A DNA stretch of 64,000 nucleotides from Mya arenaria (Eukaryota > Mollusca > Bivalvia > Myida > Myidae): the NCBI RefSeq assembly GCF_026914265.1, contig NC_069136.1:48840381-48904380 (forward strand), read 5' to 3'. Position numbers and translations under genes: made by a program. The number at the start of each line of letters is the position of its first letter. The stretch's first letter is position 1. Below, one piece after another: positions 20,401 to 43,484 of this stretch. The notes beneath the pieces were generated by a model. That model worked only from the letters and a program-made list of their open reading frames with translations. It was not told where the DNA came from and made no database searches.

Positions 20401-23400
20401 CCTCGAGCGATCGCAGTTTTATTGAATTTCGTCCTAATATCGGAGGTGAAATGACTTAGTTTGCATTATTTAAATACCAAATTTGTTTGGTTGTTATAAG
20501 TTTTATTTCGGCATAATTTGCATACATACTCGTTCGACAGAAAATATATCTAGGCGATATAAAATAACATGGTATAGCCATGCATCCAAAAATCACGTAC
20601 TTACATATGATACATTAAGCCACTTTTTAATGTAAATATCTTATTGGCCATTGGCCATCATTATTTGAATTTCTGAAAACTGAGTTTATCTCCAATGTGC
20701 TTTGTACCTTCAGCGGATCTGTTTTCCAGTATCAGTATTCATTCATGTGGTTCTAGAGATATATTGTTAAAGCTGCACTCTCACAGATTTACCGTTTTGA
20801 CAACCTTTTTTTATTTTTTTTTCTTTGAATGAGCCATCTTTGCGAAAATATTTGCAAAACAGTGATACAAGACTGCTGACAAACAATCAGATTTTAGATA
20901 TTTATATTTCCGTTCGAAAATTAATGGTTTATGGCTAAAAGCGTCACTAACGGTTTGAGAAAAATGCATTAAACATCATTTTTTGAAATTAATTATGAAA
21001 TCTGCGATCTGATTTTTAATCAGCAGTCTTTTACCACAAGGTTTTCATGCATTATCGCATAAATTGCCTCGAATTATAAAAAAATAAAAAATAAATGTCA
21101 AAACGTTTAATCTGTGAGAATGCAGCTTTAAATAAAATAAAAAGTCTTCAAAATCAGTACTCGCAAATATGTCATAGCAATGTCTTTGATTCCAGTAAAT
21201 GTCTTAATTACCGTATGTACAAACATGAACATACATATGAACATTATTTTGATAAATTCATTCGGAACTCCTCGGCCATTTTATCGAAAACAACCTCGGA
21301 TGTATTTGGACGGTTTACACACTCAAAAAGTGGTACGTTTAAGTCCGCTGCAAGTAGATCGCGTAGTAATTTTATTTAGCAGTTAAACTTTGTGACTTAG
21401 CTCTTCGGATTCTTCATTATGTTTGCTATAATACAATTCAATGACAATAAATTTAAACTTAGATCAATAAATACAACTCTAAAACACTACATTTAACTAA
21501 TGATATAATTCAAAATTTTACGAACTACTTCAGCAGATGTACCTGCATACATCCGAGGTTGTTTTCGATAAAATGGCCGAGGAGCTCCGAATGTGATAAA
21601 TTGTCACCCTATCTTTTACAACAATTAGTTTATTTTAGAATGTGTAACAATCATCTTCCTATTGAATAACTCAGATGGGCTAATGTCCAACGTAATGATA
21701 ACATTTGCAATGTTTTAATTCAGGAGAGATCGGAGACGAATTTCATTACTTATTTAAATGTAGTGTTTTTAATCATTTACGAAAAACAAATTCCAGAGCG
21801 ATTCCACAGAAACACAAATTGACTTAGTTTCAAATCTCTTATGAATGGAAACAATGAACACACTCTTCGTCAATTGGGCAATATTTTAGCTATTATAATG
21901 AATCATCTTTAAAACCCACCCGGCATTTCAAACACATAAACTGTTAGATAATCATAGAAGGATGTATTTTCCTTTTGATATATGTGTAACCACTTTTCCA
22001 CATTATTTCTTTCCTCTGATAGTAACAACCCACAGCCTGGTTATTGTAGTTATTTGTATACTGTTGTATAACCTTATATCACATATATTTATGTGCTAAA
22101 TGTACCAATAAACTTGTAAACTTGTATGTCTATCGTAAACACTGCATACCAAGTATACAATAAAAACTACAGGGACAAGCCTACTAGTCCAAAACTCAAA
22201 TATATACCATATTAAGAGGCATGAGAGGCCTAGACGACATAGAACAAGAGACATAAGCAAACAAACACCAAAAACTGTCCACACATGACCTACTTAGCTT
22301 CATCGATAAATGATAGGATAACCGGCTTGGAACAATCATCGGAACATGAGTTTACTGTGGGTTTTAATTAGTCTAGATGCGATTAATCGCATACTTGGAC
22401 TAGATGCGATTAATCGCATACTTGTCACAACATTTGCATTTATTTTATTTTTCAGTTTGGTTAGAGAAAAGGTTTTTAGCTTCATCGAAAACCGAAATAA
22501 TATTTCTGCGAACAAGCTTAGAAACTGCTTTGGCACTCTGACTGATGGCAAGAACATCATTGATGACAACAATACATTTATAGATGAATTAGATGTTCAA
22601 TATGTAAGCACATCTAAGCTATTTATGTTATTTATTTGTTGTTTGTATTTTTGTGTATGCCTATAAAAATCGAGTATTTTTAAATTTTCTGTTCAGAAAT
22701 GTGTACGTAGATCGATTCTAACGAATGCGCCTAAATGTTTCAGGGAGTATAATTCAGTCAATTTTCCACCAAAGCTAACTTGTTAAACTAGCGTATTATA
22801 AGGTAACATATTTGGTGTTTGAATTTTTGTTTGGGCTAATGACAATCGAGGAGTTTTTAAAAAGTCATTCAATAACTAATTTGATTTGTTTTCTTTGTTA
22901 CTTTTCATATACACGTTGACTTGAATTATTATAAGCATATGTGTTGTTGACAGTATACATTGTGCAAATGTTTGTCGATCTGCCTGTCTGTCCGTGTTGT
23001 CTGTCTTCCTTAACAGAAAGTGCTCTCATGATGGTGTTAAAATAATTTTCTGATCAGACTTTACCTATGCTCAATAAATGTTCAATAAGTAACACTTAAT
23101 AAAAAAAATATAATAAAAGGATCAAGTTAATAAAGAAAATAATTATATACACTACAGGTATATCATAGAAAGTATGTCACTTTAATTTACTGCAACCTTA
23201 CTCCTTAGTCCTGTCGAATACGCTTTAAAACTGGCCAATGCGACTGTGAGAGTAGATCGTTTTTTGCAATAATTTTGATGCTCAGCTACGTTCGACAAAA
23301 TCTTACACCGCTTGGATGATGAATGTACTGAAATCAGACAAAAAAAATCATATTGATTCACATTATGTGCTCTCATGGTATCGTCATAAAGCAATTCAGG

Positions 23401-26400
23401 TAATTTGACTAACTTTTATAAAAAATATTTATAGATGTTGTGGTTTCCAGGAGTATTATCGCAGTTGGAAGATGAACATTACCAATGGACCAAACCAGTT
23501 GTTTCCAATAACCATATTTGCTGATAAGGAACACAAGTTGATTACGAGCCAAACCCGACTGAGCCCCGATTTAACATGGCAAAGCGCGAGAGTTATGTCT
23601 TTTTCACCTAAGATTTCAATCTCACACATCAGGTAGACGCTTTGATCGAGTAGATCTGTTAAAATTGTTGTAAATGCTCGTAGGTCATTCAAAGGCATAT
23701 CAACAGAGGCAACAATCTCTTTAACACGTTGATATCTTCGTTATAGTAATTAGTTCATACTTATTAATTATAAACTTCAACTAATTCGTTTAACATACTA
23801 TCAAACATAAAATCTACATAATGCACAAACATATAAAAGATGGCCAACTTATTCAAACAACACGAACTGGAATGTCAGGCAACATTGTGTTATTTTTCTT
23901 TTACATTTAAAGAGCCATTGGTGACAATGTCTTACATTACGCTTCCTGTCATTCCGATAAACAAAGTGCCATCAGTGACAATGTCTTACATAATGCTTAC
24001 TGCAAAACCCATAACCAAAGAGCCATCAGTGAACATGTCTTACATAATGCTTACTGGCAAACCCTTTACCAAAGAGCCATCAGTGAACATGTTTTACATC
24101 ATGCTTACTGCAAAACCCATAACCAAAGAGCCATCAGTGAACATTTCTTACAAAATGCTTACTGCCAAACCCATAACCAAAGAGCCACCAGTGAACATGT
24201 CTTACATAATGCTTACTGCCAAACCCATAACCAAAGAGCCATCAGTGAACATGTCTTACATAATGCTTACTGCCAAACCCATAACCAAAGAGCCACCAGT
24301 GAACATGTCTTACATTGTGCTAACTGGCAAGCCCTAACCAAAGAGCCATCAGTGAACATGTCTTACATAATGCTTACTGCCAAACCCATAACCAAAGAGC
24401 CATCAGTGAACATGTCTTACATAATGCTTACTGCCAAACCCATAACCAAAGAGCCATCAGTGAACATGTCTTACATAATGCTTACTGCCAAACCCATAAC
24501 CAAAGAGCCATCAGTGAACATGTTTTACATCATGCTTACTGCAAAACCCATAACCAAAGAGCCACCAGTGAACATGTCTTACATAATGCTTACTGCCAAA
24601 CCCATAACCAAAGAGCCATCAGTGAACATGTCTTACATAATGCTTACTGCCAAACCCATAACCAAAGAGCCATCAGTGAACATGTCTTACATAATGCTTA
24701 CTGGCAAATCCTTGACCAAAGAGCCATCAGTGAACATGTCTCACATTATGCTTACTGCCTAACCCATAAACAAAGAGCCATCAGTGAACATGTCTTACAT
24801 AATGCTTACTGGCAAACCCTTTACCAAAGAGCCATCAGTGAACATGTTTTACATAATGCTTACTGTCAAACCCATAACCAAAGAGCCATCAGTGAACATG
24901 TCTTACATAATGCTTACTGGCAAACCCCATAGTCAGATAGCCATCAGCGAAAATGCCTTACACATGATAACTAGCAAACATTTAACCAACTGTACATACT
25001 CGTGAACATTTCTGGTATTTTCGGTAGCTGCCGAAGAACGTATTCTTCTTGTCTGATAGTATATTATTAAAGCATTTTCACTTGCTTTTTAAACAGTGTA
25101 AGAAAGATGTATTCTGAATTGGCAAAACGTGAAAAGTAAAATGCTCTCTTAATAATGTTTTGAGCATTTAAAAAATATTTACTTGAATCATTTCTATGCT
25201 GATAATTATATAGTAAGTATACATACATAGTAAAATGAGCCGAACACAAAGTAAAAGACTACATGTAAATGTTTTTAGGCTTGTATTCACTGAGTCAATG
25301 ATAGCAAAACATGTTTTCAAATGTTACAAAATATATTTAATTTTTGTTTTCAAGAATGTTTTCAAGAATTGCGTAAATATTTGTGGGAAGTGTTATTTTT
25401 TACATATATAAACATTAAAGTACATGTGTACATGCCTTCATAAGAGCGTTTTACATTACAATAAAATTTGTTAAGTTTTGAGCTCAAGATGTTAGCGAAT
25501 ATGTACCCAGTTATCAGCGATAATTTTCCCATACTTACTTTGTTTAATATTTATGTTCATGCACAGGTGAACCTTATGAATGCAATCTGTAAATACTGAT
25601 AATTTTTTAAAGAGAATGTTTTCAAACCGTTTTAAATTATAACCCTATAAACATGCAATTAGTAATATACTAGCGTTATAATGTTGAGGGCATTTGATAC
25701 TCTTCGGCCATTTTTCTAGAACACAACCTCGGATGTATTTGGATGGTTTACATACTCAGAAATCGGTATGTTTAAGTCCGCTGCTTAAAAGTAGATCGCG
25801 TAGTATATTAATTTAGAAGTTAAACTTAATGACTTGACTCTTGGGAATCTTAATTAATTTGCAACAATACACTTCACTGGCAATTAATTTAAACTTAGAT
25901 CAATAAATACAAGCTAAAGCCCTACATTTAATTAATTATATAATTCAAACATTTACGAACTACTTCTACTGATGTACCGGCATGCATCCGAGGTTGTTTT
26001 CGATTAAAAATGGCCAAGGAGTTCCGAATGTGTTGAGGGGTGATGACTATCCTCGCATTCTACCTTGACACAGGAGGTTACATATTGATTCAGACAGATA
26101 TTGACATACAACAATCATAATTGATAAGTTATGATTACATTAAAGGAAGTAGTTCTTATTGGCCAACAGGGTAAGGAAAACGAGATGGGCTCCAATAATT
26201 CACGGCTCTCACAAGAACTGGTACACAATCGATTACAAAGGAAGATAACTTGTTAAATGTCAAAGGGGCACGATCTAGATTGATTCAAATTTAAACTCAC
26301 TTGACGTTCAAAACAAAACAAAAACATACGATTTGTTTATATAAAAAAATATAAGCCTTTTTTATTCAATAGCTGCGTGCCCACAAATTCTCCACTTCAA

Positions 26401-29400
26401 AAGCGCCAAAATATCGCTAATATTTTTATCTGTTCATAAATCGAATTTTTTTTATCATTGAAGTCAAATAAGTGAAGTATGCTAATGCACCAAAATTAAT
26501 AAAAATGCATCAGCTTATGCCCATTTAGACTCAACTACCATACAACGTGTTACTCAAAACTTTACAAGAGTACATATTACTTATAAATTCATGTTCACAG
26601 TGTTACGGTTCACTTGATGGTATGGTTAACAAACACCACTCTTCAACAACAGTATCGGTGCAAGCCTGACTGCCAAAATGAGTCCAGCGGATGCAAGAAT
26701 GGTATAATAATACATGTATTGTGGATTTGCCTATGATATGTGTGTATACAAATGCACTTATACTCATAGTAAAGCAGTCTCGACAGCATTTATGATACAA
26801 TATCAAATATATTCTGTTATATAAATAAATGTGGCGATCAGTCCAGTATCAAACTGTAAATGGGAAAGTATGTTTGATGTCTTCTTAAATTAAAAACCTT
26901 TCTTTTCTTTTTCTCACAAACAAAATCAAAAACTCAACATATATTGATGTTGATTTTAGAATATCTTCTCTTTTCATGGGTTTATAAAATATGAAAAGCT
27001 TGCAGTACCTTGAAAAAAACTATCGCCGCAGCACTTTTGGATTGCATAAACGCGTGAAGAATAAGACGATGCTATCTTAATTCTTTAAACAATTTTTTAT
27101 ATATTGTAATGTAGTTTTGTTTCCCTTCAGGATATACGTTTCCATGTCTTTAAATGAGCCAGAAAAGCCTAAACAAATATTTTTAAAAAATGGACCGAAA
27201 TCTTTTCCATTATGATAATATCAAACTAACATACAATATGTTTTGTTATCACAGAACACCTGTCTCATCCCGCACCAGCATACTCATGTGATCATGGGGT
27301 ATGTGAAGGCGACGGGAAATGCACGTGTCACACCGGATATGCTGGAAGAAAATGCAATGTAAAGATACCGTATTGCTTGTTTTTGGAAACAAATACTTGC
27401 ATGAACGGTGGGCAATGTGTTAATACAAAAACAGAAGCAATTTGTCAATGTACAGTACATAACACAGGACCCATATGTGATATGTGTATACCGGGATATT
27501 CAGGACTAAACTGTGAAAACAACACAGACGAATGCGAATCTAACCCTTGTGAACATAACGGTACTTGTATCGACGGAATGAATAATTACACGTGCACATG
27601 TATCCCGGGATATTCAGGACTCAACTGTGAAAACGACACAGACGAATGCGAATCTAACCCTTGTGAACATAACGGTACTTGTATCGACGGAATGAATAAT
27701 TACACGTGCACATGTATACCGGGATATTCAGGACTCAACTGTGAAAACGACACAGACGAATGCGAATCTAACCCTTGTGAACATAACGGTACTTGTATGG
27801 ACGGAATGAATAATTACACGTGCACATGTATACCGGGGTATTCAGGACTAAACTGTGAAAACGACACAGACGAATGCGAATCTAACCCTTGTGAACATAA
27901 CGGTACTTGTATGGACGGAATGAATAATTACACGTGCACATGTATACCGGGATATTCAGGACTCAACTGTGAAAACGACACAGACGAATGCGAATCTAAT
28001 CCTTGTGAACATAACGGTACTTGTAACGACGGAATGAATAATTACACGTGCACATGTATACCGGGATATTCAGGACTAAACTGTGAAAACGACACAGACG
28101 AATGCGAATCTAACCCTTGTGAACATAACGGTACTTGTATGGACGGAATGAATAATTACACGTGCACATGTATACCGGGATATTCAGGACTAAACTGTGA
28201 AAACGACACAGACGAATGCGAATCTAATCCTTGTGATCACAACGGTACTTGTATGGACGGAATGAATAATTACACGTGCACATGCATACCGGGGTATTCA
28301 GGACTAAACTGTGAAAACAACACAGACGAATGCGAATCTAACCCTTGTGAACATAACGGTACTTGTATGGACGGAATGAATAATTACACGTGCACGTGTA
28401 TCCCAGGATATTCAGGACTCAACTGTGAAAACGACACAGACGAATGCGAATCTAACCCTTGTAAACATAACGGTACTTGTATCGACGGAATGAATAATTA
28501 CACGTGCACATGTATCCCGGGATATTCAGGACTCAACTGTGAAAACGACACAGACGAATGCGAATCTAACCCTTGTGAACATAACGGTACTTGTATCGAC
28601 GGAATGAATAATTACACGTGCACATGTATACCGGGATATTCAGGACTCAACTGTGAAAACGACACAGACGAATGCGAATCTAATCCTTGTGAACATAACG
28701 GTACTTGTATCGACGGAATGAATAATTACACGTGTACATGTATACCGGGATATTCAGGACTCAAATGTGAAAACAACACAGACGAATGCGAATCTAATCC
28801 TTGTGAACATAACGGTACTTGTAACGACGGAATGAATAATTACACGTGCACATGTATACCGGGGTATTCAGGACTAAACTGTGAAAACGACACAGACGAA
28901 TGCGAATCTAACCCTTGTGAACATAACGGTACTTGTATGGACGGAATGAATAACTACACGTGCACATGTATACCGGGTTATTCAGGACTAAACTGTGAAA
29001 ACGACACAGACGAATGCGAATCTAATCCTTGTGAACATAACGGTACTTGTATCGACGGAATGAATAATTACACGTGCACATGTATACCGGGATATTCAGG
29101 ACTCAACTGTGAAAACGACACAGACGAATGCGAATCTAATCCTTGTGAACATAACGGTACTTGTATCGACGGAATGAATAATTACACGTGCACATGTATA
29201 CCGGGGTATTCAGGACTAAACTGTGAAAACGACACAGACGAATGCGAATCTAACCCTTGTGAACATAACGGTACTTGTATGGACGGAATGAATAATTACA
29301 CGTGCACATGTATCCCGGGATATTCAGGACTCAACTGTGAAAACAACACAGACGAATGCGAATCTAACCCTTGTGAACATAACGGTACTTGTATGGACGG

Positions 29401-32400
29401 AATGAATAATTACACGTGCACGTGTATCCCGGGATATTCAGGACACAACTGTGAAAACGACACAGACGAATGTGAACTGAATCCTTGTGAACATAACGGT
29501 ACTTGTATGGACGAAATAAATAATTACACGTGCACGTGTACCCCGGGATATTCAGGACTCAACTGTGAAAACGACACAGACGAATGCGAATCTAACCCTT
29601 GTGAACATAACGGTACTTGTATCGACGGAATGAATAATTACACGTGCACATGTATCCCGGGATATTCAGGACTCAACTGTGAAAACAACACAGACGAATG
29701 CGAATCTAACCCTTGTGAACATAACGGTACTTGTATCGACGGAATGAATAATTACACGTGCACGTGTATCCCGGGATATTCAGGACTCAACTGTGAAAAC
29801 GACACAGACGAATGCGAATCTAACCCTTGTGAACATAACGGTACTTGTATGGACGGAATGAATAATTACACGTGCACATGTATCCCGGGATATTCAGGAC
29901 TCAACTGTGAAAACGACACAGACGAATGCGAATCTAACCCTTGTGAACATAACGGTACTTGTATCGACGGAATGAATAATTACACGTGCACATGTATCCC
30001 GGGATATTCAGGACTCAACTGTGAAAACGACACAGACGAATGCGAATCTAACCCTTGTGAACATAACGGTACTTGTATCGACGGAATGAATAATTACACG
30101 TGCACGTGTATCCCGGGATATTCAGGACTCAACTGTGAAAACGACACAGACGAATGCGAATCTAACCCTTGTGAACATAACGGTACTTGTATCGACGGAA
30201 TGAATAATTACACGTGCAGCTGTATACCGGGTTATTCAGGACTCAACTGTAAAAACAACACAGACGAATGCGAATCTAATCCTTGTGAACATAACGGTAC
30301 TTGTATTGACGGAATAAATAATTACACGTGCAGCTGTATACCGGGATATTCAGGGCTCAACTGTGAAAACAACACAGACGAATGTGAATCTAATCCTTGT
30401 GAACATAACGGTACTTGTATCGACGGAATGAATAATTACACGTGCACGTGTATACCGGGTTATTCAGGACTCAACTGTGCAAACGACACAGACGAATGCG
30501 AATCTAACCCTTGTGAACATAACGGTACTTGTATCGACGGAATGAATAATTACACGTGCACATGTATCCCGGGATATTCAGGACTCAACTGTGAAAACGA
30601 CACACACGAATGCGAATCTAACCCTTGTGAACATAACGGTACTTGTATCGACGGAATGAATAATTACACGTGCACATGTATACCGGGATATTCAGGACTC
30701 AACTGTGAAAACGACACAGACGAATGCGAATCTAACCCTTGTGAACATAACGGTACTTGTATCGACGGAATGAATAATTACACGTGTACATGTATACCGG
30801 GATATTCAGGACTCAACTGTGAAAACGACACAGACGAATGCGAATCTAACCCTTGTGAACATAACGGTACTTGTATCGACGGAATGAATAATTACACGTG
30901 CACATGTATCCCGGGATATTCAGGACTCAACTGTGAAAACAACACAGACGAATGCGAATCTAACCCTTGTGAACATAACGGTACTTGTATCGACGGAATG
31001 AATAATTACACGTGCACATGTATACCGGGATATTCAGGACTCAACTGTGAAAACGACACAGACGAATGCGAATCTAACCCTTGTGAACATAACGGTACTT
31101 GTATCGACGGAATGAATAATTACACGTGCACATGTATACCGGGATATTCAGGACTCAACTGTGAAAACAACACAGACGAATGCGAATTTAACCCTTGTGA
31201 ACATAACGGTACTTGTATCGACGAAATGAATAAATACACGTGCACATGTATCCCGGGATATTCAGGACTCAACTGTGAAAACGACACAGACGAATGCGAA
31301 TCTAACCCTTGTGATCATAACGGTACTTGTATGGACGGAATGAATAATTACACGTGCACATGTATACCGGGATATTCAGGACTAAACTGTGCAAACATCA
31401 CAGACGAATGTCAATCTAAACCTTGTGAACATAACGGTACTTGTATCGACGGAATGAATAATTACACGTGCACATGTATACCGGGATATTCAGGACTCAA
31501 CTGTGAAAACGACACAGACGAATGCGAATCTAACCCTTGTGAACATAACGGTACTTGTATCGACGGAATGAATAATTACACGTGCACATGTATACCGGGA
31601 TATTCAGGACTCAACTGTGAAAACAACACTGACGAATGCGAATCTAATCCTTGTGAACATAACGGAACATGTATCGACGGAATGAATAATTACACGTGCA
31701 CATGTATCCCAGGATATTCAGGACTCAACTGTGAAAACAACACAGACGAATGTGAATCTAATCCTTGTGAACGTAACGGAACTTGTATCGACGGAATGAA
31801 TAATTACACGTGCACATGTAAACCGGGATATTCAGGACTTAACTGTGAAAACAACACAGACGAATGCGAATCTTACCCCTGTGAACATAACGGTACTTGT
31901 ATCGACGGAATGAATAATTACACGTGCACATGTATCCCAGGTTATACAGGACTCAACTGTGAAAACAACACAGACGAATGCGAATCTAAACCTTGTGAAC
32001 ATAACGGTACTTGTATGGACGGAATGAATAATTACACGTGCACATGTATCCCGGGATATTCAGGACTCAACTGTGAAAACAACACAGACGAATGCGAATC
32101 TAACCCTTGTGAACATAACGGTACTTGTATCGACGGAATGAATAATTACACGTGCACGTGTATCCCGGGATATTCAGGACTCAACTGTGAAAACAACACA
32201 GACGAATGCGAATCTAATCCTTGTGAACATAACGGTACTTGTATCGACGGAATGAATAATTACACGTGCACATGTATCCCGGGATATTCAGGACTCAACT
32301 GTGAAAACAACACAGACGAATGCGAATCTAACCCTTGTGAACATAACGGTACTTGTATGGACGGAATGAATAATTACACGTGCACATGTATCCCGGGATA

Positions 32401-35400
32401 TTCAGGACTCAACTGTGAAAATGACACAGACGAATGTGAATCAAATCCTTGTGAACATAACGGTACTTGTATGGACGGAATGAATAATTACACGTGCACA
32501 TGTATCCCAGGATATTCAGGACTCAACTGTGAAAACAACACAGACGAATGCGAATCTAACCCCTGTGGACATAACGGTACTTGTATCGACGGAATAAATA
32601 ATTACACGTGCACATGTATACTGGGATATTCTGGGGTCAACTGTGAAAACGACACAGACGAATGCGAATCTAACCCTTGTCATAATAATGGTTCATGTTT
32701 AGATGATATGTTCAGTTATAGTTGCATTTGTATACCAGGTTATTACGGAGAGCATTGTGAGAAAGAAGTAGATGTGTGCCAATCTTCACCCTGTATGTAC
32801 AACGGCACATGCATCAATCTTGTAAATAATTACACGTGTTTGTGCCCCTCCGGATTTGACGGTAGAAATTGCAATCATAATATAAATGAATGTGCGCACC
32901 ATCCTTGCTCATATTTCAGTCTATGTCACGATGGGATAAATGGGTACACATGCGTATGTGATCCGGGATATACAGGGAGACATTGTGAAATTATTGCAAA
33001 CCGGATAGTTGAAAAGTCTATAGGACCCCTTTGTACTGAAAAGCAATGCAATGGTAATGTATGTCTTCATGGCGGAATACTTGATCGAAGATTTTCCGAA
33101 GAAGAGATGAAATGTTTATGCCATCTTGGTTGGGAAGGTGATAGATGTGAGAAAGACATAGACGAATGTTTGGCCTTGCCTTGCAATGATTCTCGCGTGT
33201 GTAGCAACGCCCCTGGAAGCTTCTGGTGCCTCGAGTACGGTAATGCTTCATTCATTTCACTTTGTGTTAAGACTGTCGGAATCTGACCAAAACAAAATTG
33301 TGTGTGCGGGCTATATAAACATGAAAATAATTTCTTTGATTCTTTAAAAAACAGGGAAAGGCGAAACTGTTTTCACAATATAATTAAATTTCATCATCAT
33401 AATAACTACAACTACAACAGTGTCGTGGTGTATATAACACCTTTTTTCACTCTCCCAGATTGACACACGTACACACAAGATCATAAGAAATGCATTGCTT
33501 TATGCAACATGGCTCCACAAAAAAAAAACTTTGTTTGTAATTTCTTTTTCGAAATTAGGTATAGGTGTTAGCCTATCAAATTAAATATAAAACAAATGCA
33601 TTTCTAAAGAAAAGTGCAGTTATTCCTTTTAAAGAGAATTAAATATGTTTAACTGGTTTTGTTTATCTACTTTATAACATCTGTTAAGCAGGACCTCCCG
33701 TCAGTGCAGTAAACCGATATCTGCATATAGAAATATAAACTGATATTGAGATCTTAAATGAAGGTGACGCCACTATAAGACTATTATAAAACGGCCGTAT
33801 CTTATTTCTCGAAACTTCTTTAACTTAGGCTAAAGGACGTAATTTTAATTAGCTCAAATCCATACTTAAAAAAAACATTTTTATAAATGATATGTCGTCA
33901 CACAGATGATTTCTATTTATAGTCTGGAAAGTTTTTAAAACGAAATTATTACACAATTTTTAGAAAAAAGGCTTAGCTTAAACCTGTATTAAGGGACTAA
34001 ACGCGTTTCAAGAAAATTGAGCCAGTATCTTTATTCTTAGCTAACACATACACATTCAGCTCAACAAAACACAGATATATGCACACTGTTCAAAACATGG
34101 CATATAATGTGTCTGAATTGATCGGAAGACAAGCATGCGTGCGTCTTCTCAATGATGGTGTATCTTTGTTCATGATTGCAAAAAGTAGATCGGGTAAAGT
34201 AGAGGTTCGGTTGCATTTATTGTTTACTAGAAGATAACTCATTAAGCGGGGAAAGAAATTAAATATCATTATAATTATGCTTTCAAATTCTTGTAGAGTT
34301 GATTTGATTCTGCGATGATCTGGATGAACATTATAAAATGGCAAAATATTAAGTAGTGATGTAACATACTTTGACCGGTAGAGAGAATGAGAATTCTGCA
34401 GTGTTATTTACCATTTCAGTTCCTTACACTTGCTTTATTTAGCATACACTTACAGTCTAACCCCGTTGGCTCGAACTCGCTTGGTTCGTATTCCTTGTTG
34501 GCTCGAACTAGATGTTAACGACCGGTCTCTTTAAATTTAATGTAAACATTTCCGCTTGGCTCGAATTTTTCGAGGCTCGAGGTATTTTCGCCGGTCCCTG
34601 GGAGTTCGAGCCAACGAGGTTCGACTGTATTTTTATTTAATTGGGTCAGAATAATTTCACGTTATTGTAAACAACAAAAAACAACATATTGATGTATTTA
34701 TGTGTTTGACAATGTAGAAATAAACTCTTAGTAATAATGCAGATGTTGTATTCTAAACAATGTAAGACGGTTTGCTCAGCTTGAAAGAATAGTTGTTAAA
34801 TAACGGTTCGGTACTTTCATTGACATTATTTAACTCGAAAAAAAAAATCAATATCACGATAAGGTTTTTTTTGTTTATTTTTTTCATCGATCCAGTTTCA
34901 TCTGAGAACACATTGCTGGAAGAACAAATTGAAGAAATCAGAACGTCATACCCTCTTTTATTGAACAAGACAAATGTTTTGCAGTGTGGTACAGTTCAGA
35001 TGGCGCTTGAACGCACTGAAGATTCTGGGTATGTCATGGTTTTCATGTCCTTAAAAAATAGCAAAAGTTTCTTTGATTTGGCTGAAAAGTCTTTAATCTG
35101 TAATGAGATAATTTGGGTTGAAAGAAGTCATTCTTTATTGTTGAAAATATGTTAATGGTTGTTTTGGAGAGGAGGTTTAAGAAGGTTGTTAAAACGATGT
35201 TAATAATTGTTTTGGGAGGACGACGTCTAAGTATGTTGATAAAAGGATGTTAATAATTGTTTTGGGAGGACGTCTAAGTATGTTGATAAAAGGATGTTAA
35301 TAATTGTTTTGGGAGGACGTCTAAGTATGTTGATAAAAGGATGTTAATAATTGTTTTGGGAGGACGTCTAAGTATGTTGATAAAAGGATGTTAATAATTG

Positions 35401-38400
35401 TTTTGGGAGGACGTCTAAGTATGTTGTTAAAACGATGTTAATAATTGTTTTGGGAGGACGTCTAAGTATGTTGATAAAAGGATGTTAATAATTGTTTTGG
35501 GAGGACGTCTAAGTATGTTGATAAAAGGATGTTAATAATTGTTTTGGGAGGACGTCTAAGTATGTTGTTAAAAGGATGTTAATAGTTTATTTGGGAGGAC
35601 GTCTAAGTATGTTGTTAAAAGGATGTTAATAGTTGTTTTGGGAGGACGTCTAAGTATGTTGTTAAAAGGATGTTAATAGTTTATTTGGGAGGACGTCTAA
35701 GTATGTTGATAAAAGGATGTTAATAATTGTTTTGGGAGGACGTCTAAGTATGTTGATAAAAGGATGTTAATAGTCTATTTGGGAGGACGTCTAAGAATGT
35801 TGTTAAAACGATGTTAATAATTGTTTTGGGAGGACGTCTAAGTATGTTGATAAAAGGATGTTAATAATTGTTTTGGGAGGACGTCTAAGTATGTTGTTAA
35901 AAGGATGTTAATAGTTTATTTGGGAGGACGTCTAAGTATGTTGATAAAACGATGTTAATAGTTGTTTTGGGAGGACGTCTAAGTATGTTGTTAAAAGGAT
36001 GTTAATAGTTTATTTGGGAGGACGTCTAAGTATGTTGATAAAACGATGTTAATAATTGTTTTGGGAGGACGTCTAAATATGTTGATAAAACGATGTTAAT
36101 AATTGTTTTGGGAGGACGTCTAAGTATGTTGTTAAAACGATGTTAATAGTTGTTTTGGGAGGACGTCTAAGTATGTTGATAAAATAATGTTAATAGTTGT
36201 TTTGGGAGGACGTCTAAGAATGTTGTTAAAACGATGTTAATAATTGTTTTGGGAGGACGTCTAAGTATGTTGTTAAAAGGATGTTAATAATTGTTTTGGG
36301 AGGACGTCTAAGTATGTTGATAAAAGGATGTTAATAATTGTTTTGGGAGGACGTCTAAGTATGTTGCTGAAACGATGTTAATAGTTGTTTTGGGAGGACG
36401 TCTAAGAATGTTGTTAAAACGATGTTAATAGTTAATTTGGGAGGACGTCTAAGTATGTTGATAAAACGATGTTAATAGTTGTTTTGGGAGGACGTCTAAG
36501 AATGTTGTTAAAAGGATGTTAATAATTGTTTTGGGAGGACGTCTAAGTATGTTGATAAAACAATGTTAATAATTGTTTTGGGAGGACGTCTAAGTATGTT
36601 GTTAAAACGATGTTAATAGTTGTTTTGGGAGGACGTCTAAGTTTGTTGATAAAATGATGTTAATAGTTGTTTTGGGAGGACGTCTAAGAATGTTGTTAAA
36701 ACGATGCTAATAATTGTTTTGGGAGGACGTCTAAGTATGTTGTTAAAAGGATGTTAATAATTGTTTTGGGAGGACGTCTAAGTATGTTGATAAAAGGATG
36801 TTAATAATTGTTTTGGGAGGACGTCTAAGTATGTTGATAAAAGGATGTTAATAATTGTTTTGGGAGGACGTCTAAGTATGTTGATAAAAGGATGTTAATA
36901 ATTGTTTTGGGAGGACGTCTAAGTATGTTGTTAAAACGATGTTAATAGTTGTTTTGGGAGGACGTCTAAGTATGTTGATAAAATGATGTTAATAATTGTT
37001 TTGGGAGGACGTCTAAGTATGTTGGTAAAACGATGTTAATAATTGTTTTGGGAGGACGTCTAAGTATGTTGATAAAAGGATGTTAATAATTGTTTTGGGA
37101 GGACGTCTAAGTATGTTGATAAAACGATGTTAATAGTTTATTTGGGAGGACGTCTAAGTATGTTGCTGAAACGATGTTAATAGTTTATTTGGGAGGACGT
37201 CTAAGTATGTTGCTGAAACGATGTTAATAGTTTATTTGGGAAGACGTCTAAGTATGTTGCTGAAACGATGTTAATGGTTTATTTGGGAGGACGTCTAAGG
37301 ATGTTGTTAAAACGATGTTAATAGTTTATTTGGGAGGACGTCTACGGATGTTGTTAAAACGATGTTAATAGTTGTTTTGGGAGGATGTCTACGGATGTTG
37401 TTAAAACGATGTTAATAGTTGTTTTGGGAGGATGTCTACGGATGTTGTTAAAACGATGTTAATAGTTTATTTGGGAGGACGTCTACGGATGTTGTTAAAA
37501 CGATGTTAATAGTTTATTTGGGAGGACGTCTACGGATGTTGTTAAGACGATGTTTATAGTTTATTTGGGAGGACGTCTACGGATGTTGTTTAGACGATGT
37601 TAATAGTTTATTTGGGAGGACGTCTACGGATGTTGTTAAAACGATGTTAATAGTTGTTTTGGGAGGATGTCTACGGATGTTGTTAAAACGATGTTAATAG
37701 TTGTTTTGGGAGGATGTCTACGGATGTTGTTAAAACGATGTTAATAGTTTATTTGGGAGGACGTCTACGGATGTTGTTAAAACGATGTTAATAGTTTATT
37801 TGGGAGGACGTCTACGGATGTTGTTAAAACGATGTTAATAGTTTATTTGGGAGGACGTCTACGGATGTTGTTAAGACGATGTTAATAGTTTATTTGGGAG
37901 GACGTCTACGGATGTTGTTAAGACGATGTTAATAGTTTATTTGGGAGGACGTCTACGGATGTTGTTAAAACGATGTTAATAGTTGTTTTGGGAGGATGTC
38001 TACGGATGTTGTTAAAACGATGTTAATAGTTGTTTTGGGAGGATGTCTACGGATGTTGTTAAAACGATGTTAATAGTTGTTTTGGGAGGACGTCTAAGTA
38101 TGTTGTTAAAACGATGTTAATAGTTTATTTGGGAGGACGTCTAAGTATGTTGCTGAAAAGAGATAAATACTTGTTTTTTTCTGTTAATATTATTTATTTT
38201 TATTTTATTTTATTTTTTTGGTGGGGGGGGGGTCTTAGGATGTTGATGAAACGATGATAATAGGTGTTTTGCAGGGAAGTCGAAAGATGTTGTTGCCATT
38301 TGTTAATAGTTGTTTTGAAAGGAGGTAGAAAGATCTTGTTGAGAAGATGTTAGTAGTTGTTTTAGGAAAAGGTCGACCGGATGTGTCTGAAACGAGGTTG

Positions 38401-41065
38401 AAATGTGTTGTATACTCTTTATGAAAGTAAACAAAGTAAATCTTACACAATATTGATTAGTTTAAATAAAATAAGATTTTAATGAATGACTTGTTTATCA
38501 AGTCCTTCGCGTTAATTACAGAAGTTTGAGAGTCGGCATCGTGTGTGATGATAAGCCCTTGTCTAAAGATGAACTAGAGAGACTATTTGCTACTTTACCG
38601 TTAACAGAAGTGCTGCGTAAGGATACAGACGTCGGAACAAAGGACACAGCTTCTTCTTGGGAGGTTCGCTTTTTATCACATTTTGTTGCATTTAAATTCA
38701 ATTTAAATGATCTTCCTCGATAATTTACGTCACTTTTTATTTGTTTTAAATGTATGCACGTGGTAGGGTTGAATGACTCCTAAAAGGTAAAGTTTATTTT
38801 TACCACCTGTTATGTTTGTGAAAATGATACCTCTTACACAAATATCACATTTAACATCTGATTTAAAACTTCGTTTCTTTAAACGTTTGAAATTTTAAGA
38901 AAATAAATAAAATGTTAACTTATAAATAATGTTTTCTTTTTTCCAGAAGGTTTTAAGTTTGATGGACAAATACAAGATTGCATTGTCCGGTATTGGACTT
39001 GGTCTTTTAATTGCTCTTTGTGGTATGGTAGTGAGCATCTGTATTTTGTGCGGGTAAGAATACTATAATTCGATTTTGTCACGTAGCAGAGTTACTATAG
39101 AATGTGACGTAATACGTTATATTTAAGATATAATTAAGATTTAATTAAATGGATATGTGTCTACATACTGTATGTTTAGTAATGTAGGGCATATTTGATT
39201 GTCATTTGAATATGAAGATGGTTGACAGCCGACCTGGTACAAATGTACAAAATGGTCATGTTAATTACAAAAACGTGTATTCCTGTGGTTGTAAAGCTGT
39301 CATAGGTAGACAACAAATTAGTACAAATTAGTATAAAAGAGATGACTTGGGATGTGAAAACAGAGTGCGTTTAGGCACGGCAAGGAGACCGGCCTTGGGT
39401 CCTTAATGGACGGCAGTTAGGATGTGGGATTACCTTAAATGTCATGCTGTATTATATACTGATTATTATACTTAGAAAGAACGTTGAACAATAAAGACTT
39501 AGAACACTTGAACAGTTGTTGGTTGGTTACTGGAGGAACTATCACGAAAGTCAAGTGAGCGTTGGCGTTACGTGACAATTTTAAACGGACAAATACCTAC
39601 AAAGACCAGGGGCAGTATTCATAAATGTTCTTAAGTCATTTCCTAACTTAGGTAAATTTCTTAAAATTTTCAAAGTCAAATGAAAATAAATGTATATGTG
39701 TTTTTAACATTAAAATATGTTGTTTTTTTCAATAAGGTCAATAGAAATAATGTAATTCTAATCTTATTTTTTATGACTAAAGAGATAATACAATTAGGAA
39801 AGTGACTTAAGTTAAGAAATGACTTTAGAAGTTATATGAATACCGCCCCTGAGCTGTTAGTTTAAAAAAACATTTTTGCCCTCCTAATGGCAGGCAGTTA
39901 GTCATTTCGCATTGAATGTCTATGAAATTTAAGGTTACGACCCACATCCCTTCCGAGTAGTAGATTTTTTGGTATTGTTATTGACGGATTTTAAATGTTA
40001 TTATAGGAGTTGATGGGTTATAGTATCCAGTAAAAAATGTTTGCGTCTTCCATTAGTTAAATGCATAATATAGAGTTATTCATTTGGGCTGTGCAAATTT
40101 AATAGAAAGCTGCTAACAGGCCAATTAACGTGGTAACCAATAGATTTATAATAATTATAACATGGCCATTTTCTTTGCAACTTTCAAGCATTTTTATTAA
40201 TCATTGTAATATAAGAAATATGTTTTGAAAGATGTCCACGACTGTGGTCATTCTGGTGAACTTGACCTTTCAGCTGTTGATAGGGGTGTACAATATGAAT
40301 CTATAGACCATGACCAAAATCAAAATAAATAAGGGTCATCTGAAGGACATGACCAACCTCCCTACCAAATCTGGGGACCATATACCTAATCGTATTCAAG
40401 AAATCAATTGGGCAAGTTGCTTGTGTCAAGATCACCTCGTCTGTGACCTTTAACCTACTGACTTCAAAGTCAATAGGGGTTCATTTGCTGGTCATGACCA
40501 ACCTCCGTACCAAGGGCTAGTTGTAGAGCTGATTACTCAAGTTATCAATCGGACAAGATTTTGTCTACCGACCGACGGACCGAACGACACGTGCAAACAA
40601 AAACAACTGAAATTATGATGTATACTTGTACCTCACTGTTACCTAGATTAAGCTCAGTTTGACTTGTTCTGAATCAAAAGTAGGCATGTCCTTAAACGGT
40701 GCATATCTTTCAAATTGTTCATTATTATTTGTTCTAGATGTTTCGACGGAAAAAATAAAGTTATCGAGAAGGAACCAGTAGAACTTCCTGATGAAATTAA
40801 TTCAAAACAGCACAAACGAAAATATAGCAAACTCAACAGAGCGTCTAATGATGCATGCGACAGAAACAGAACTTCACAGAAACAATTGCGACATCGGGAA
40901 GAGCTGCAAGAATTACGTCATGTACCACGTGATAAGGATGACGTCATGTATATGCAAAGACCTGTTGCTGCTATCAGTGATGATCCGAAATATAGCAATA
41001 AGTCATCAAGTTCAAGAGAGAGACAGCATTGTATAGAATATACCAATCCCTTGTTTAAATACTAA
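11380..41065 (+). CDS. Giant EGF-repeat single-pass membrane protein (gene A), 16 exons
   Basis: Exons: 11380-11427, 12926-13044, 13923-14034, 14482-14633, 15441-15580, 15840-15996, 17003-17174, 17478-17620, 22456-22603, 23451-23632, 26601-26701, 27255-33239, 34896-35028, 38522-38663, 38947-39053, 40738-41065. All introns are GT-AG, phases match, and 8,169 nt give an open frame of 2,722 residues. Residues 1-16 (MLGTLLIVIVCLAKPV) look like a signal peptide. Residues 17-490 form an N-terminal region that weakly recalls the Notch-ligand N-terminal domain and the start of a DSL domain (TGEFLTLSLE; FCKPGTYGEKC). Residues 500-2487 hold about 52 EGF modules, 45 near-identical. Exons 13-14 encode a juxtamembrane region, exon 15 a membrane span (about 2588-2612), and exon 16 a basic tail ending NPLFKY, with an NPxF endocytosis-like motif. 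A cell-surface adhesion or Notch-type signalling role is inferred. Least sure: exon 1 and the exon 3 donor. Confidence 0.85.
11847..12236 (+). mobile_element. MITE with TTAA ends, family M3 copy in gene A intron 1
   Basis: Starts TTAAAATGACACTCTTATTC and ends with the inverse GGGAGTAAGAGTGCATCTTTAA-type end (inverted match CACTCTTA next to TTAAA). Related copies occur inverted at 41572-41948 and 58257-58632, and as partial forward copies at 44445-44665 and 61127-61348. They share 'GAAAATATTAATTACTGATA' and 'GATTGGTGAATGCTAAAAGA'. Confidence 0.75.
13362..13616. mobile_element. MITE with GCCCCAATTTCTCGAAACTT ends, intron 2
   Basis: The left end GCCCCAATTTCTCGAAACTT is mirrored by AAGTTTCGAGAAATTGGGGC at the right end (20-bp perfect inverted repeat), 255 bp in total. 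A degenerate relative lies at 33796-34028 and its duplicate at 49445-49676. Confidence 0.8.
14745..14936. mobile_element. Possible small inverted-repeat element, intron 4
   Basis: ATATTTCACCG at the left is mirrored by CGGTGAAATAT at the right, 192 bp apart overall. Short arms only; no second copy seen. Confidence 0.35.
16490..16995 (+). repeat. 27-bp minisatellite abutting the exon 7 splice acceptor
   Basis: About 18 units of a 27-bp repeat (ATGATATGTATTGTGTTTTA plus TAATATA). As 27 is divisible by three it yields an artefactual open frame (9-residue period). The last, altered unit runs into ATGATAAGTTTGGTGTG and the TGTTTTCAG acceptor of exon 7 at 17003. Confidence 0.9.
17590..19262 (+). 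repeat. 37-bp minisatellite seeded on the exon 8 splice donor, intron 8
   Basis: About 45 units of 37 bp with core CACCCTGTCATATTCCCCAA followed by GGTATAGGGCCGGTAAT. The end of exon 8 plus its donor (17592-17626, ...CACCCTGTCACATTCCCCAA then G|gtatag) is itself a recognisable first unit. Early units are diverged; the middle (about 18340-18600) is almost perfect. Confidence 0.92.
19375..20422. mobile_element. Non-autonomous TIR element (pogo/Tc1-like), intron 8
   Basis: The left end TAAAACTGCG, then a 'gttcgaac' motif, is mirrored by the right end CGCAGTTTTA preceded by 'CTCGAGCGAT'. TTCGA-rich ends and TA borders suit pogo-type DNA transposons. No transposase frame is visible in its 1,048 bp. 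A tRNA-like SINE head lies inside. Confidence 0.55.
19795..19870 (+). mobile_element. tRNA-Asp-like SINE head
   Basis: Contains an A-box-like TGGTCTAGTGGTAACTCACT, anticodon loop CTGTCAG (GTC, Asp) and B box GGTTCGATTCC, with GTGGCGG and CCGCCGC ends that could pair. The geometry between the B box and the 3' acceptor strand is too short for a true tRNA, so I call it a SINE or tRNA-like relic. Confidence 0.5.
20767..21131. mobile_element. MITE with TTAA ends, family M2 copy 2, intron 8
   Basis: TTAAAGCTGCACTCTCACAG at the left, mirrored by CTGTGAGAATGCAGCTTTAA at the right. Same family as 1376-1723. Confidence 0.75.
21259..21593. mobile_element. MITE, family M1 copy 2, intron 8
   Basis: CATTCGGAACTCCTCGGCC is mirrored by GGCCGAGGAGCTCCGAATG. 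Flanked by the 9-bp direct repeat TGATAAATT (21250-21258 and 21594-21602). Confidence 0.85.
22377..22419. repeat. Tandem pair of a 16-bp perfect palindrome before exon 9
   Basis: ATGCGATTAATCGCAT occurs at 22377-22392 and again at 22404-22419, with ACTTGGACTAG between. It lies 37-79 bp upstream of the exon 9 acceptor, in the usual branch-point zone. Confidence 0.85.
23908..24950 (+). repeat. 54-bp minisatellite, intron 10
   Basis: About 19 units of 54 bp ('CATGTCTTACATAATGCTTA', 'CCCATAACCAAAGAGCCATC'). Because 54 is a multiple of three and the unit lacks stops in one frame, long open frames appear. They are broken by a small deletion near 24333 and a TAA near 24759, and no splice sites join them to gene A. 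I read it as non-coding. Confidence 0.9.
25691..26030. mobile_element. MITE, family M1 copy 3, intron 10
   Basis: Ends CATTTGATACTCTTCGGCC (mutated) and GGCCAAGGAGTTCCGAATG. Flanked by the 9-bp direct repeat TGTTGAGGG (25682-25690 and 26031-26039). Confidence 0.85.
27255..33239 (+). CDS. Gene A exon 12: 5,985-nt exon carrying nearly all EGF modules
   Basis: Acceptor atcacag|AACACC and donor TACG|gtaatg. The exon opens with an EGF module (six cysteines around CDHGVC...CTCHTGYAGRKC), then a second that fuses into the canonical array. It ends with five diverged EGF modules (from about 32651: HNNGSCLDDM, VDVCQSSPC, INECAHHPC, QCNGNVCLHGG, IDECLALPC). The last module is cut by the intron after FWCLEYG, losing its final cysteines. 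Canonical modules are of the calcium-binding type (DTDEC...). An intronless exon this long is consistent with growth by unequal exchange. Confidence 0.92.
27521..32650 (+). repeat. 45 x 114-bp coding tandem array (38-residue cbEGF unit)
   Basis: From the first AACACAGACG (27521) to the matching GACACAGACG (32651) is 5,130 bases, exactly 45 units of 114, with no length change. Units vary mainly at D/N before TDEC, at I/M/N in C(I/M/N)DG, and at scattered single residues (for example CELNPC, CEFNPC, NPCERNG, CTPGYSG). Each unit has C-x-S-x-P-C, C-x4-T-C, C-x-D-x4-Y-x-C and C-x-x-G-x-S-G-x-x-C motifs plus NDT/NNT, NGT and NYT sequons. Confidence 0.95.
33796..34028. mobile_element. Degenerate MITE, 'TTTCTCGAAACTTC' family, intron 12
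   Basis: The left end contains TTATTTCTCGAAACTTCTTT and the right end the decayed inverse (GTTTCAAGAAAATTGAG). Related to 13362-13616. A duplicate is in copy B at 49445-49676. Confidence 0.55.
34451..34629. mobile_element. pogo-like MITE, intron 12
   Basis: A 179-bp element including TA borders. Left CAGTCTAACCCCGTTGGCTC, right the inverse GAGCCAACGAGGTTCGACTG, bounded by TA on both sides. CAGTCGAACC-type ends and TA duplications suit pogo/Tigger-type MITEs. Also in copy B (54294-54462), so it predates the duplication. Confidence 0.75.
35160..38155 (+). repeat. 47-bp minisatellite, ~63 units, intron 13 (copy A only)
   Basis: Period 47 bp, core TTTTGGGAGGACGTCTAAGT. The 5' part is built of 'TAAGTATGTTGATAAAAGG' units. 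The 3' part (from about 37300) is dominated by 'TACGGATGTTGTTAAAACG' and 'AGTTTATTTGGGAGG' variants, with higher-order groupings. Copy B has only about two units here (about 54985-55075). Confidence 0.93.
39077..39577. mobile_element. Solo-LTR-like insertion, intron 15 (copy A only)
   Basis: About 500 bp starting TGTCACGTAG and ending TTACGTGACA, flanked by ATTT or ATTTT (39073-39077 and 39078-39082). Copy B has the empty site, a single CGATTTTAAACGG (about 56262). TG...CA ends, a 4-5-bp duplication and an internal AATAAA (about 39490) suit a solo LTR of a Ty3-like retrotransposon. A DNA-type MITE is the alternative. Confidence 0.7.
39608..39850. mobile_element. MITE with GGGGC(A/G)GTATTCAT ends, intron 15
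   Basis: The left end GGGGCAGTATTCATAAATG is mirrored by ATGAATACCGCCCCTG at the right. Also present in copy B at 56289-56537. Confidence 0.65.
40210..40600 (+). repeat. Dispersed repeat, 'gaccatgacc / ccgaccgacggaccg' type, intron 15
   Basis: Contains GACCATGACCAAAAT, TGACCAACCTCC twice, and the CCGACCGACGGACCGAACGA run near its 3' end, a style common in bivalve dispersed repeats. The copy B version is at about 56893-57285. Confidence 0.5.
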
Positions 41066-41371
41066 ACAAATGTCGGGTAAAATAATTGACGCCAGACTGA
41101 CAGTAGTATTGTATCGCTAACATGTAATCAAACATTGACTAACGTTACATACTTTAATATATGTTGTTAGCTTCGTTTGCATCATGTGTAATAGTGCCTT
41201 ATATACTTCTAGTTTATCATACCAGGTATAAACTTGACAATGCTTATACAATTATTCGATAATTCGAAGTGGTAGATTCTAATGCTTTTAAGCATAAAAT
41301 ATTATCCATTTAAAACAAAAATAATCATTGTACGCATGCATCCGTTTACATACCTAGCTATTTGTGTTATT

Positions 41372-41377
41372 AATAAA
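41372..41377 (+). terminator. Candidate poly(A) signal, gene A
   Basis: AATAAA about 310 bp after the stop codon; also present in copy B (about 58057). No cDNA evidence, and other signals are possible. Confidence 0.35.
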
Positions 41378-41571
41378 CAGATTAACTGCATGTTAATTGC
41401 AAGAAATGCTCAAACACGAAAAAAGTTTTTTAATCGCTTTTTGTCTCAGTATTATATTACAAGCCTTTCAATTGTATCCGAAACCAATTACAAAAAAGAA
41501 ATTGATGTCTGTTCTGTATCGAAGGATTGTTTTCTACTGAAATGTTATGATATGTTGTATATGCCTAACGT

Positions 41572-41948
41572 TTAAAGATACAATCTTACTCCCAAATAAG
41601 ATGTACCACAATTGATTCAATTGTTTTAATTTACTGAAAAAGATATATACATATCGTAAACAATGGTTCTTATGAAGGATACCGCGTTTAATTTGAATAA
41701 AAGGTGCAGAAAACAAATTATTTCTACCTTATGATTTAGTAGTTGATCACAGTTAATCTTTAAGGACACACAAGTCATTTAATATTTGTGCGTTTTCAGC
41801 TATTAAATACATGGTTACAATCGTCTTATCAGTAATTAATATTTTCTATAAATGCATTATTTAGTAAGTTGTTTAAAGTTTATCAATCAAAATAGATGTT
41901 TGTTATACACATGTATGTATTGATTTTAGATAAGAGTGTAACTTGAAT
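41572..41948 (-). mobile_element. MITE family M3, inverted copy downstream of gene A
   Basis: Reverse-orientation relative of 11847-12236: begins TTAAAGATACAATCTTACTC and ends near TAAGAGTGTAACTTGAA. Confidence 0.65.
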
Positions 41949-42577
41949 TATTTTATTTAATATACTCATGGCATAAACCCCTGATTTGTAACAAGACTTA
42001 TTTCCATTTATTTTCATAAAAAATCAAGAATAAATTCAGGTTTGTTTGTGTATTTAACCATATTTTATACATGCTTTTATTATCATTTCCTTTTATGTTA
42101 ATTTTCATCAGGTCACTTAATCCGAATTTGACTTGTTATTAATGAATGTTCCTTTTCTAATTTACGAAAATCAATTTCGATATAAAATAATGGCACGGAT
42201 ATAAACTATAATACCAACATTTATCTAATAGATATATTATGCTTCCGAAACGTAACCGTTACAAAACGTTTCATGTATTTTTTTGTACCGAATGGGTGTT
42301 ATGTATATAAGGACGGTGGCCTTAATTCTGATAAGCCAAACAGTTGACTCAAATCATGCCATGTTAAGTAATATTTGACGTGGCAAACGTAGCAAAGTCA
42401 TCGAGGTACATATCGATTTGTTAAGGATCTAGTTATTATTACCAGTGATCACAACAACAAAATTGCTTATATAAGCACGTTCTAGATTAATTTCCAATCC
42501 TTTCTCCAAGGCTAAGATAAAGTACGCTTCAGCCCTTTAAAGAAACGGTACGTACGTACATGTAATGTAAACAAATA

Positions 42578-42807
42578 TTAAAGGGACTCGTCCATGTTAC
42601 AGAGGGTCAGACAATTATTCAAGAATGCGTCAGGAAATGTTCCATTTTGCCGAAAAGCGTTAGTAAAGCTTTTGACTTTAGACTTGAATTCATAACCCAA
42701 AATGGTATCTGTCAGTTGAAAGTTGGTATTTATTCGTATAAGACAGTCAAACAACTCAAATTGGAAAACAATGTTGCCTACATAAACAAATGAGCCATTT
42801 CCTTTAA
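42578..42807. mobile_element. Probable MITE upstream of FAS1 gene A
   Basis: Starts TTAAAGGGACTCGTCCATG and ends near CATTTCCTTTAA. The inverted match is short. A small minus-strand frame here (79 codons) is also in copy B, but has no domain. Confidence 0.4.
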
Positions 42808-42962
42808 AAAGTCCCACACTGATATGAACTTAAGCCGAAGATCACTCGCACTTATATGAATACACGTGAACAGCCTTGAACCCACATTCCAGTGCTGTCT
42901 TGACATCGGTCGGTTCAACAGTATTGTTATCTTCATGTCCTAGATAGGTTATGTCTGCGAAC

Positions 42963-43314: not shown

Positions 43315-43477
43315 GGAATGCTACATACAAAGATAGCTCCATGCACTTCAGTAATTATATAATTTTTCGAAGAGGTCATAACGTTATGCCAATGTTAATA
43401 AATACCTGTGCCGCGTGAGTACCAATGATTCTCCAAATTCACATGTGCACAAACGTGTTGCCAGCACAACGATATGG

Positions 43478-43484
43478 TATAAAA
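43478..43484 (+). promoter_or_regulatory. TATA box, FAS1 gene A
   Basis: TATAAAA in GGTATAAAACGC, 84 bp upstream of the third base before the ATG. A start near 43508-43515 would give a short leader of about 55 bases. Identical in copy B. Confidence 0.7.

Follow-up and report, generated by a model that had tools for sequence, protein, structure and literature searches.

This study concerns a gene on the plus strand of a 64,000-nucleotide stretch of contig NC_069136.1 from the bivalve Mya arenaria (the whole stretch analyzed, here called the window), which carries a long tandem array of epidermal growth factor (EGF) modules. Tandem Repeats Finder (TRF) places a 114-bp array at positions 27485-32680, with 45.6 copies and 0% indels, and translation yields 46 EGF units that start N-x-T-x-E-C and keep a 38-codon spacing throughout, all within one exon. 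Forty-five of them, at 27518-32647, are near-identical 38-residue units by TRF, translation, and unit alignment. The first-pass annotation, made from the letters alone, had described exactly this number of indel-free units in one exon, as we find; the span that it gave, 27521-32650, does hold the array but begins one codon late. The 46th unit (32648-32761) is divergent, reads NGSC, and has two sequons and no EOGT motif. At the 5' border, directly after a different EGF, stands an orphan half unit, CIPGYSGLNCE (27485-27517), which we read as the mark of an exchange inside a unit. Mean pairwise DNA identity among the 45 units is 95.2% (minimum, 85.1%), and they fall into 37 distinct versions as DNA and 22 as protein; no stretch longer than 221 bp was found to recur exactly and in register. 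The six Cys columns, in EGF spacing, are invariant in all 46 units.

The array exon as a whole (27255-33239, phase 1 to 1, AG/GT edges, stop-free) encodes two EGF-like modules, the half unit, the 46 units, and, at 32762-33239, further EGF-like modules outside the array, the first of which is module 47. The open reading frame at 27230-33286 has no stop across the array and stays unbroken over 6 kb. Pfam EGF matches the exon in 47 stretches totaling 924 bits. A short Cys-rich exon (YRCKPDCQNESSGCKN; 26653-26701, phase 0 to 1) may precede it; it is open and joins in frame, but its donor score is poor (-2.1 with home-made weights), and our confidence in it is low.

Four further predicted exons follow on the same strand. 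Juxtamembrane exons 2 (34896-35028, phase 1 to 2) and 3 (38522-38663, phase 2 to 0, with an in-frame join) lead to a transmembrane exon 4 (KYKIALSGIGLGLLIALCGMVVSICILC; 38947-39053, phase 0 to 2) and a cytoplasmic tail exon 5 (40738-41065, phase 2 acceptor) of 108 codons plus a stop, with the C terminus EYTNPLFKY. The phases chain unbroken from the array exon through exon 5, and the splice dinucleotides of exons 2 to 5 are kept in a second, partial copy of the locus (copy 2). Exon 4 has the model's best acceptor (7.5) and donor (5.8; home-made weights) and a mean hydropathy of 2.74 over a 19-residue window. Between the copies, the end of the array exon (32648-33238) has a ratio of nonsynonymous to synonymous change (pN/pS) of 0.27, with 7 synonymous and 8 nonsynonymous codons. 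Exon 2 shows 5 mismatches in 133 positions (3 synonymous and 2 nonsynonymous codons), exon 3 is 99.3% identical with one nonsynonymous change, and exon 4 carries one synonymous and one nonsynonymous change. Exon 5 has no mismatch in 328 positions within a block that otherwise differs by 1.2% (P = 0.02). The next plus-strand gene starts at about 43.57 kb with an apparent signal peptide, which leaves exons 2 to 5 without another evident parent.

With the candidate exon at 26653-26701 counted in, the in-frame model amounts to 2247 residues and ends in a predicted hydrophobic helix and, behind it, a cytoplasmic tail, the arrangement of a type I membrane protein. We therefore favor, at a probability of roughly 0.55, a type I single-pass, membrane-anchored, calcium-stiffened glycoprotein rod of 46 EGF modules, homogenized by unequal exchange. 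Membrane anchoring would be likelier than a free secreted rod because the downstream exons are predicted to encode a transmembrane helix and tail.

The duplicated locus

Comparison of the window with itself revealed four tandemly duplicated blocks: 31987-34332 matches 47621-49977 (92.7% identity), 34327-35242 matches 54159-55066 (92.8%), 38303-39077 matches 55466-56263 (93.0%), and 39578-47325 matches 56259-64000 (98.5%). Identity thus steps near 38.5 kb from about 93% on the array side to 98.5% beyond, a difference that could reflect gene conversion or another round of duplication at a later time. The array exon is truncated in copy 2 (47622-48873, plus strand), where it comprises a partial unit, five near-identical units, the divergent unit, and the 3' modules. 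This copy begins partway through an array unit that has Ser in place of its first Cys, and no phase-1 acceptor was seen by eye at its 5' edge. Exons 2 to 5 recur at 54725-54857, 55697-55838, 56133-56239, and 57423-57750, also on the plus strand.

A locus this repetitive invites the suspicion of an assembly artefact, in which the array has been expanded or copy 2 is an allelic haplotig placed in tandem, and the 98.5% identity of the 39578-47325 copy points the same way. Against this, 37 of the 45 units are distinct and no exact in-register repeat exceeds the 221 bp noted above, so that long reads could place the array; the frame is intact over 6 kb, and the introns on the array side have diverged by 5.8% between the two copies, which is much for alleles. 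We regard an artefact as highly improbable.

The break of copy 2 inside the array, the half-unit border, and the likeness of neighboring units together point to exchange within the array. Adjacent units (lag 1) are more alike than under random order (P = 0.0085, uncorrected for the 22 lags). A higher-order repeat structure was not apparent, as only lags 1 and 2 of the 22 exceed random unit order at P < 0.05, again uncorrected.

The duplication also bears on a rival to the anchored rod, namely, a secreted structural fiber or adhesive comparable to octovafibrin, the fibropellins, scallop Sbp9, or mussel foot protein-2, produced by reading through exon 2 to a stop and assembling as a soluble product into threads, egg coat, byssus, or mucus. 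Exon 2 does stay open past its donor to a TAA at 35153-35155 in both copies, and the stretch beyond the donor shows 0 mismatches in 99 positions, which would be unusual at the intron rate of 5.8% (P = 0.0026). The read-through form (34896-35155) is a possible candidate for a switch between membrane and soluble products. Furthermore, load-bearing or cohesive molluscan proteins with 11 to 49 tandem EGFs have been described (PMC10336842, PMC6244088, and PMC5911496, drawn on, like the other papers cited here, in excerpt). On the other side, transmembrane and tail exons come ahead of the next gene on this strand, join in frame, and have a conserved tail, and the recovered part of the gene contains no C-type lectin, avidin, or Calx-beta domain. 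A secreted fiber is, in our judgment, unlikely, although the likeliest of the rivals.

Several other features share the window. A FAS1 (Fasciclin) gene, apparently secreted, occupies 43568-46002 on the plus strand, with Pfam Fasciclin matches in three of its four pieces; it was duplicated together with the array gene, its copy lying near 60.2-62.7 kb. The intron between exons 2 and 3 holds a 47-bp minisatellite (35138-38177, about 65 copies) that is largely missing in copy 2, where tetranucleotide repeats occur instead (55087-55448). Copy 2 alone contains a 4.2-kb stretch with fragments of a LINE-like (long interspersed nuclear element) reverse transcriptase on the minus strand (51890-52977), one RVT_1 match being above and one under the Pfam cutoff. 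Other minisatellites lie at 23909-24962 (54 bp), 17683-19266 (37 bp), and 16499-16982 (27 bp); because the period of the 54-bp one is a multiple of three, every forward frame is open over a long distance there.

Modification motifs and selection

Four of the consensus patterns for modification of EGF domains are present almost throughout the array. By scripted count, the O-glucose consensus C-x-S-x-[PA]-C occurs in 44 of the 46 units, the O-fucose consensus C-x4-[ST]-C in all 46, the EOGT consensus C-x-x-G-x-[ST]-G-x-x-C in 45, and the Asp/Asn hydroxylation consensus in all 46. All four stand together in 43 units, the exceptions being units 18, 33, and 46, and the Ca2+-binding consensus [DN]-x-[DN]-[EQ]-C ... 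[DN]-x4-[FY] fits 44. To these are added the N-glycosylation sequons, of which there are three in 44 units (43 with all four motifs as well) and 136 in all: 45 N-[DN]-T, 45 NGT, 44 NYT, an NIT in unit 35, and an NGS in unit 46. A Cys directly follows 90 of the 136. In every one of the 46 units, the Ser or Thr that would accept O-fucose is at the same time the third residue of a sequon.

The first-pass annotation had anticipated the O-glycan and hydroxylation motifs, the presence of up to three sequons per unit, and the double role of the NGT threonine as sequon residue and O-fucose site, and the counts agree with it on all three. It went too far in crediting each unit with every known EGF glycosylation consensus, since the POGLUT2/3 motif, C3-x-N-T-x-G-S-F-x-C4 (PMC13084666), is found in 0 of the 46. 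Nor did its statement that natural Notch or Jagged modules seldom carry all the patterns at once hold for the O-glycan and hydroxylation motifs. Among 18 Notch1 and Delta-like 1 (Dll1) modules taken from PDB-search alignments, which are a convenience sample of two proteins and not a survey, 4 carry all four motifs when the EOGT pattern is allowed G or P and, by eye, 3 with G alone. What distinguishes the array within this 18-module comparison appears to be sequon density: only 1 of the 18 has a sequon, one in all, versus the array's 136 in 46 units.

How much weight this density deserves depends on the history of the units. When a single consensus unit was shuffled with its Cys residues held in place, the mean was 0.89 sequons, and three or more arose in 3.3% of cases; as the units are duplicates, the excess over chance counts as one event, not 45. 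Module 47, a diverged neighbor of the array, carries the O-glucose, O-fucose, and hydroxylation motifs together with NGT and NYT, so the greater part of the combination probably predates the expansion of the array.

Selection among the 45 units was assessed from their internal differences. The pN/pS is 0.19, and the distinct base variants, tallied base by base so that two or three changes within one codon are scored separately, comprise 27 nonsynonymous and 24 synonymous ones, where a nonsynonymous share of 0.75-0.81 would be expected (P = 1e-3 to 5e-6). From these comparisons we take the units to be under purifying selection, which lends independent support to the array being real. The nonsynonymous base variants observed were then compared, class by class, with the count that synonymous change would predict. 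Cys codons have 0 versus 12.8 expected and sequon residues 1 versus 12.8, both low relative to the 20 versus 34.5 at other sites (P = 0.0018 and 0.011, respectively). The O-glucose/EOGT positions (3 versus 8.6) and the calcium/hydroxylation positions (3 versus 11.2) are not low by the same comparison (P = 0.30 and 0.15). When tested against random position sets, the six sequon residues gave P = 0.0086, and P = 0.026 once the five copy 2 units were included. Selection on the sequons is suggestive at most; it is marginal and not shown.

A further possibility, that the gene is a recognition receptor (gamete, allorecognition, or immune) varying in array length and copy number, can be weighed here. 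The ascidian vitelline coat protein HrVC70, a sperm receptor with 12 EGF repeats, offers a precedent (PMC9265791), and in the present case the locus is tandemly duplicated and exchange among units evident. However, the units are conserved, not diversified, when averaged over all sites (pN/pS of 0.19), and the recovered part has no ZP domain. We consider such a receptor improbable.

The same data bear on a Notch-pathway modulator, in which the O-fucose sites would be Fringe targets and the rod would bind Notch ligands or receptors. The O-fucose consensus is universal in the array, T16, the O-fucose Thr, has by itself no nonsynonymous variant in the 45 units, and Notch1 and Dll1 EGFs are the nearest in sequence and fold. 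Yet the three O-glycan acceptors S8, T16, and S33 are jointly no more conserved than average (P = 0.77 and 0.70), and selection on them as a set was not seen with random position sets. The C-terminal part has no LNR or ankyrin, and an NGT carrying an N-glycan would presumably be closed to O-fucose. This reading therefore seems quite improbable. The first-pass proposal of a densely glycosylated, possibly Fringe-targeted rod is accordingly fair as to a densely glycosylatable rod, and weakened as to Fringe, because the O-glycan acceptors are not extra conserved.

Structure, mechanism, and weighing of the anchored rod

Four-unit structure models reached at best a predicted local distance difference test score (pLDDT) of 71.8 and a predicted template modeling score (pTM) of 0.30. 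The top PDB matches of the best model are Notch1 EGF tandems, with TM-scores of only 0.3-0.5, and the first 13 rows of the fold search are Notch1 and other Notch chains at 38-48% identity. A PDB sequence search likewise put Dll1 and Notch1 EGF tandems nearest. The modeled domain fold seems credible; the inter-domain geometry does not.

In the anchored rod that we favor, Ca2+ at the linkers would stiffen the array, and N-glycans, as many as three on each module, would coat it. Given EGF spacing, its length would be of the order of 100 nm. The rod could hold a putative N-terminal head far from the membrane, acting as a cell-surface spacer or adhesion protein, while the NPLF of the tail, which we take to be an NPxF motif for PTB-type (phosphotyrosine-binding) or endocytic adaptors, might couple it to such adaptors. 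Unequal exchange inside the exon would keep the units alike and let array length vary. If the protein is indeed membrane anchored, it would make a natural reagent for rod mechanics and for the tolerance of unequal exchange in a folded protein.

The overlap of sequon and O-fucose site raises a more specific question. At NGTC, oligosaccharyltransferase would act before folding and POFUT1 after it. Activity of POFUT1 was observed with an entire EGF domain but not with peptides (PMC11990869). Sequons close to Cys are frequently passed over, and STT3B uses them only with MagT1/TUSC3 (PMC8645230). Each unit would thus be expected to bear one of the two, the N-glycan if the Cys-flanked sequon is used and O-fucose if it is passed over. 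A bolder reading makes the array a repeated either/or device, built on the Thr or Ser shared in all 46 units, in which endoplasmic reticulum redox state and the choice of oligosaccharyltransferase would set, unit by unit, whether the rod carries bulky N-glycans or O-fucose. We regard the device as improbable; if true, it would switch the binding and Fringe sensitivity of the rod by degrees. In any event, the array presents 46 near-copies of one test of which enzyme wins and whether it matters. A literature search found no description of the NGT/O-fucose overlap, in the available parts of PMC11990869, PMC7922208, and PMC13084666 among others.

A number of observations weigh against the anchored rod. 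Some concern the gene model: the exon 3 donor (1.0) and exon 5 acceptor (0.1) are weak by our home-made weights, and exons 3 and 4, with 1 and 2 codon changes between the copies, have too few to prove coding. Given the read-through described above, the main product, or else an alternative one, may be secreted. At the 5' end, a simple upstream scan for a signal peptide gave one unconvincing match, at 16935 in a minisatellite stretch. The upstream exon scan listed no exon with strict cutoffs and, with looser ones, a few weak candidates, none with a domain, leaving no secure 5' exon. Since the reverse-strand control was also exon-like (6 listed, best 8.2; forward, 9 listed, best 14.9 and 12.7), these candidates are leads only. 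One of them (22456-22603, plus strand, phase 1 to 0, no known domain) would fit the candidate exon at 26653. Other observations concern the rod itself. Three of the five structure models are poor (pLDDT of 31-34), and because the inter-domain geometry is not credible, the rod shape is taken from known calcium-binding EGF tandems. As to the glycan coat, omission of the two sequon residues shared with the O-fucose motif takes the conservation test to P = 0.06 and 0.15, and N-D-T is a poor sequon.

Comparison with known EGF-array proteins

At the level of the single module, the closest counterparts are in Notch1 and Dll1 (PDB 9b3n, 5uk5, 2vj3, and 4xbm), whose EGFs, like those of the array, bind Ca2+ and carry the same O-glycan consensuses. 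Notch1 EGF20 even has CESNPC and all four motifs. However, the Notch1 and Dll1 modules differ among themselves, whereas those of the array are near-identical. A Notch receptor was considered and rejected, as neither the array exon nor the spliced juxtamembrane-transmembrane-tail piece has an LNR or ankyrin Pfam match. The DSL domain that a Delta or Jagged ligand has upstream of its EGFs was not found in 10 chosen of 109 upstream open reading frames or in the 93 modeled N-terminal residues, the 5' exons not having been recovered. Neither Pfam nor the PDB yielded a convincing relative for the juxtamembrane-transmembrane-tail piece (best E values, 0.019, under the curated cutoff, and 0.42, respectively), and relatives in viral contigs were not confirmed (0 of 3 pattern matches). 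Our literature search, made on partial texts, found no description of this gene, a weak absence.

By overall plan, the comparison shifts to long extracellular proteins of marine invertebrates. Octovafibrin, from octopus egg threads, resembles the product of the array gene in that a run of 29 EGFs makes up the body of a long extracellular protein from a mollusc, but it has C-type lectin flanks, forms threads, and contains no EGF called calcium binding by PROSITE, according to the available part of PMC10336842. In the array, 44 of 46 units fit the Ca2+ consensus, and in place of a C-type lectin domain, for which the C-terminal side has no Pfam match, a transmembrane exon follows. Scallop Sbp9 has 49 tandem EGF-like repeats in 2033 residues, with a PCGGPC motif, Calx-type calcium-binding domains, and <30% identity to other EGFs (PMC6244088). 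PCGGPC is in none of the array units, the consensus CESNPC being close to Notch, and the scanned exons have no match to a Calx-type domain. Fibropellins, which belong to an extracellular layer of a marine invertebrate, have as many as 21 EGF modules and end in an avidin-like domain (PMC10336842); the array exon and juxtamembrane-transmembrane-tail piece have no Pfam match to such a domain, and the transmembrane exon stands there instead.

As for homogenization, Drosophila Dumpy and abalone VERL likewise have repeats made alike within one extracellular gene by concerted evolution, although the unit is the PIGSFEAST repeat in the former and a ZP-N-like repeat in the latter (PMC2930355, PMC9265791), and an EGF here. 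The long EGF arrays of marine invertebrates in the cited excerpts are secreted fibers, coats, and adhesives, so a membrane-anchored one would differ from them. By plan, then, the nearest systems are octovafibrin, Sbp9, mussel foot protein-2, and the fibropellins, which, where described, have other terminal domains and serve in threads, plaques, and coats outside the cell; by module sequence, they are Notch and Dll1. On its sequence, we place the gene among the tandem EGF-array extracellular proteins, with an unusual load of sequons.

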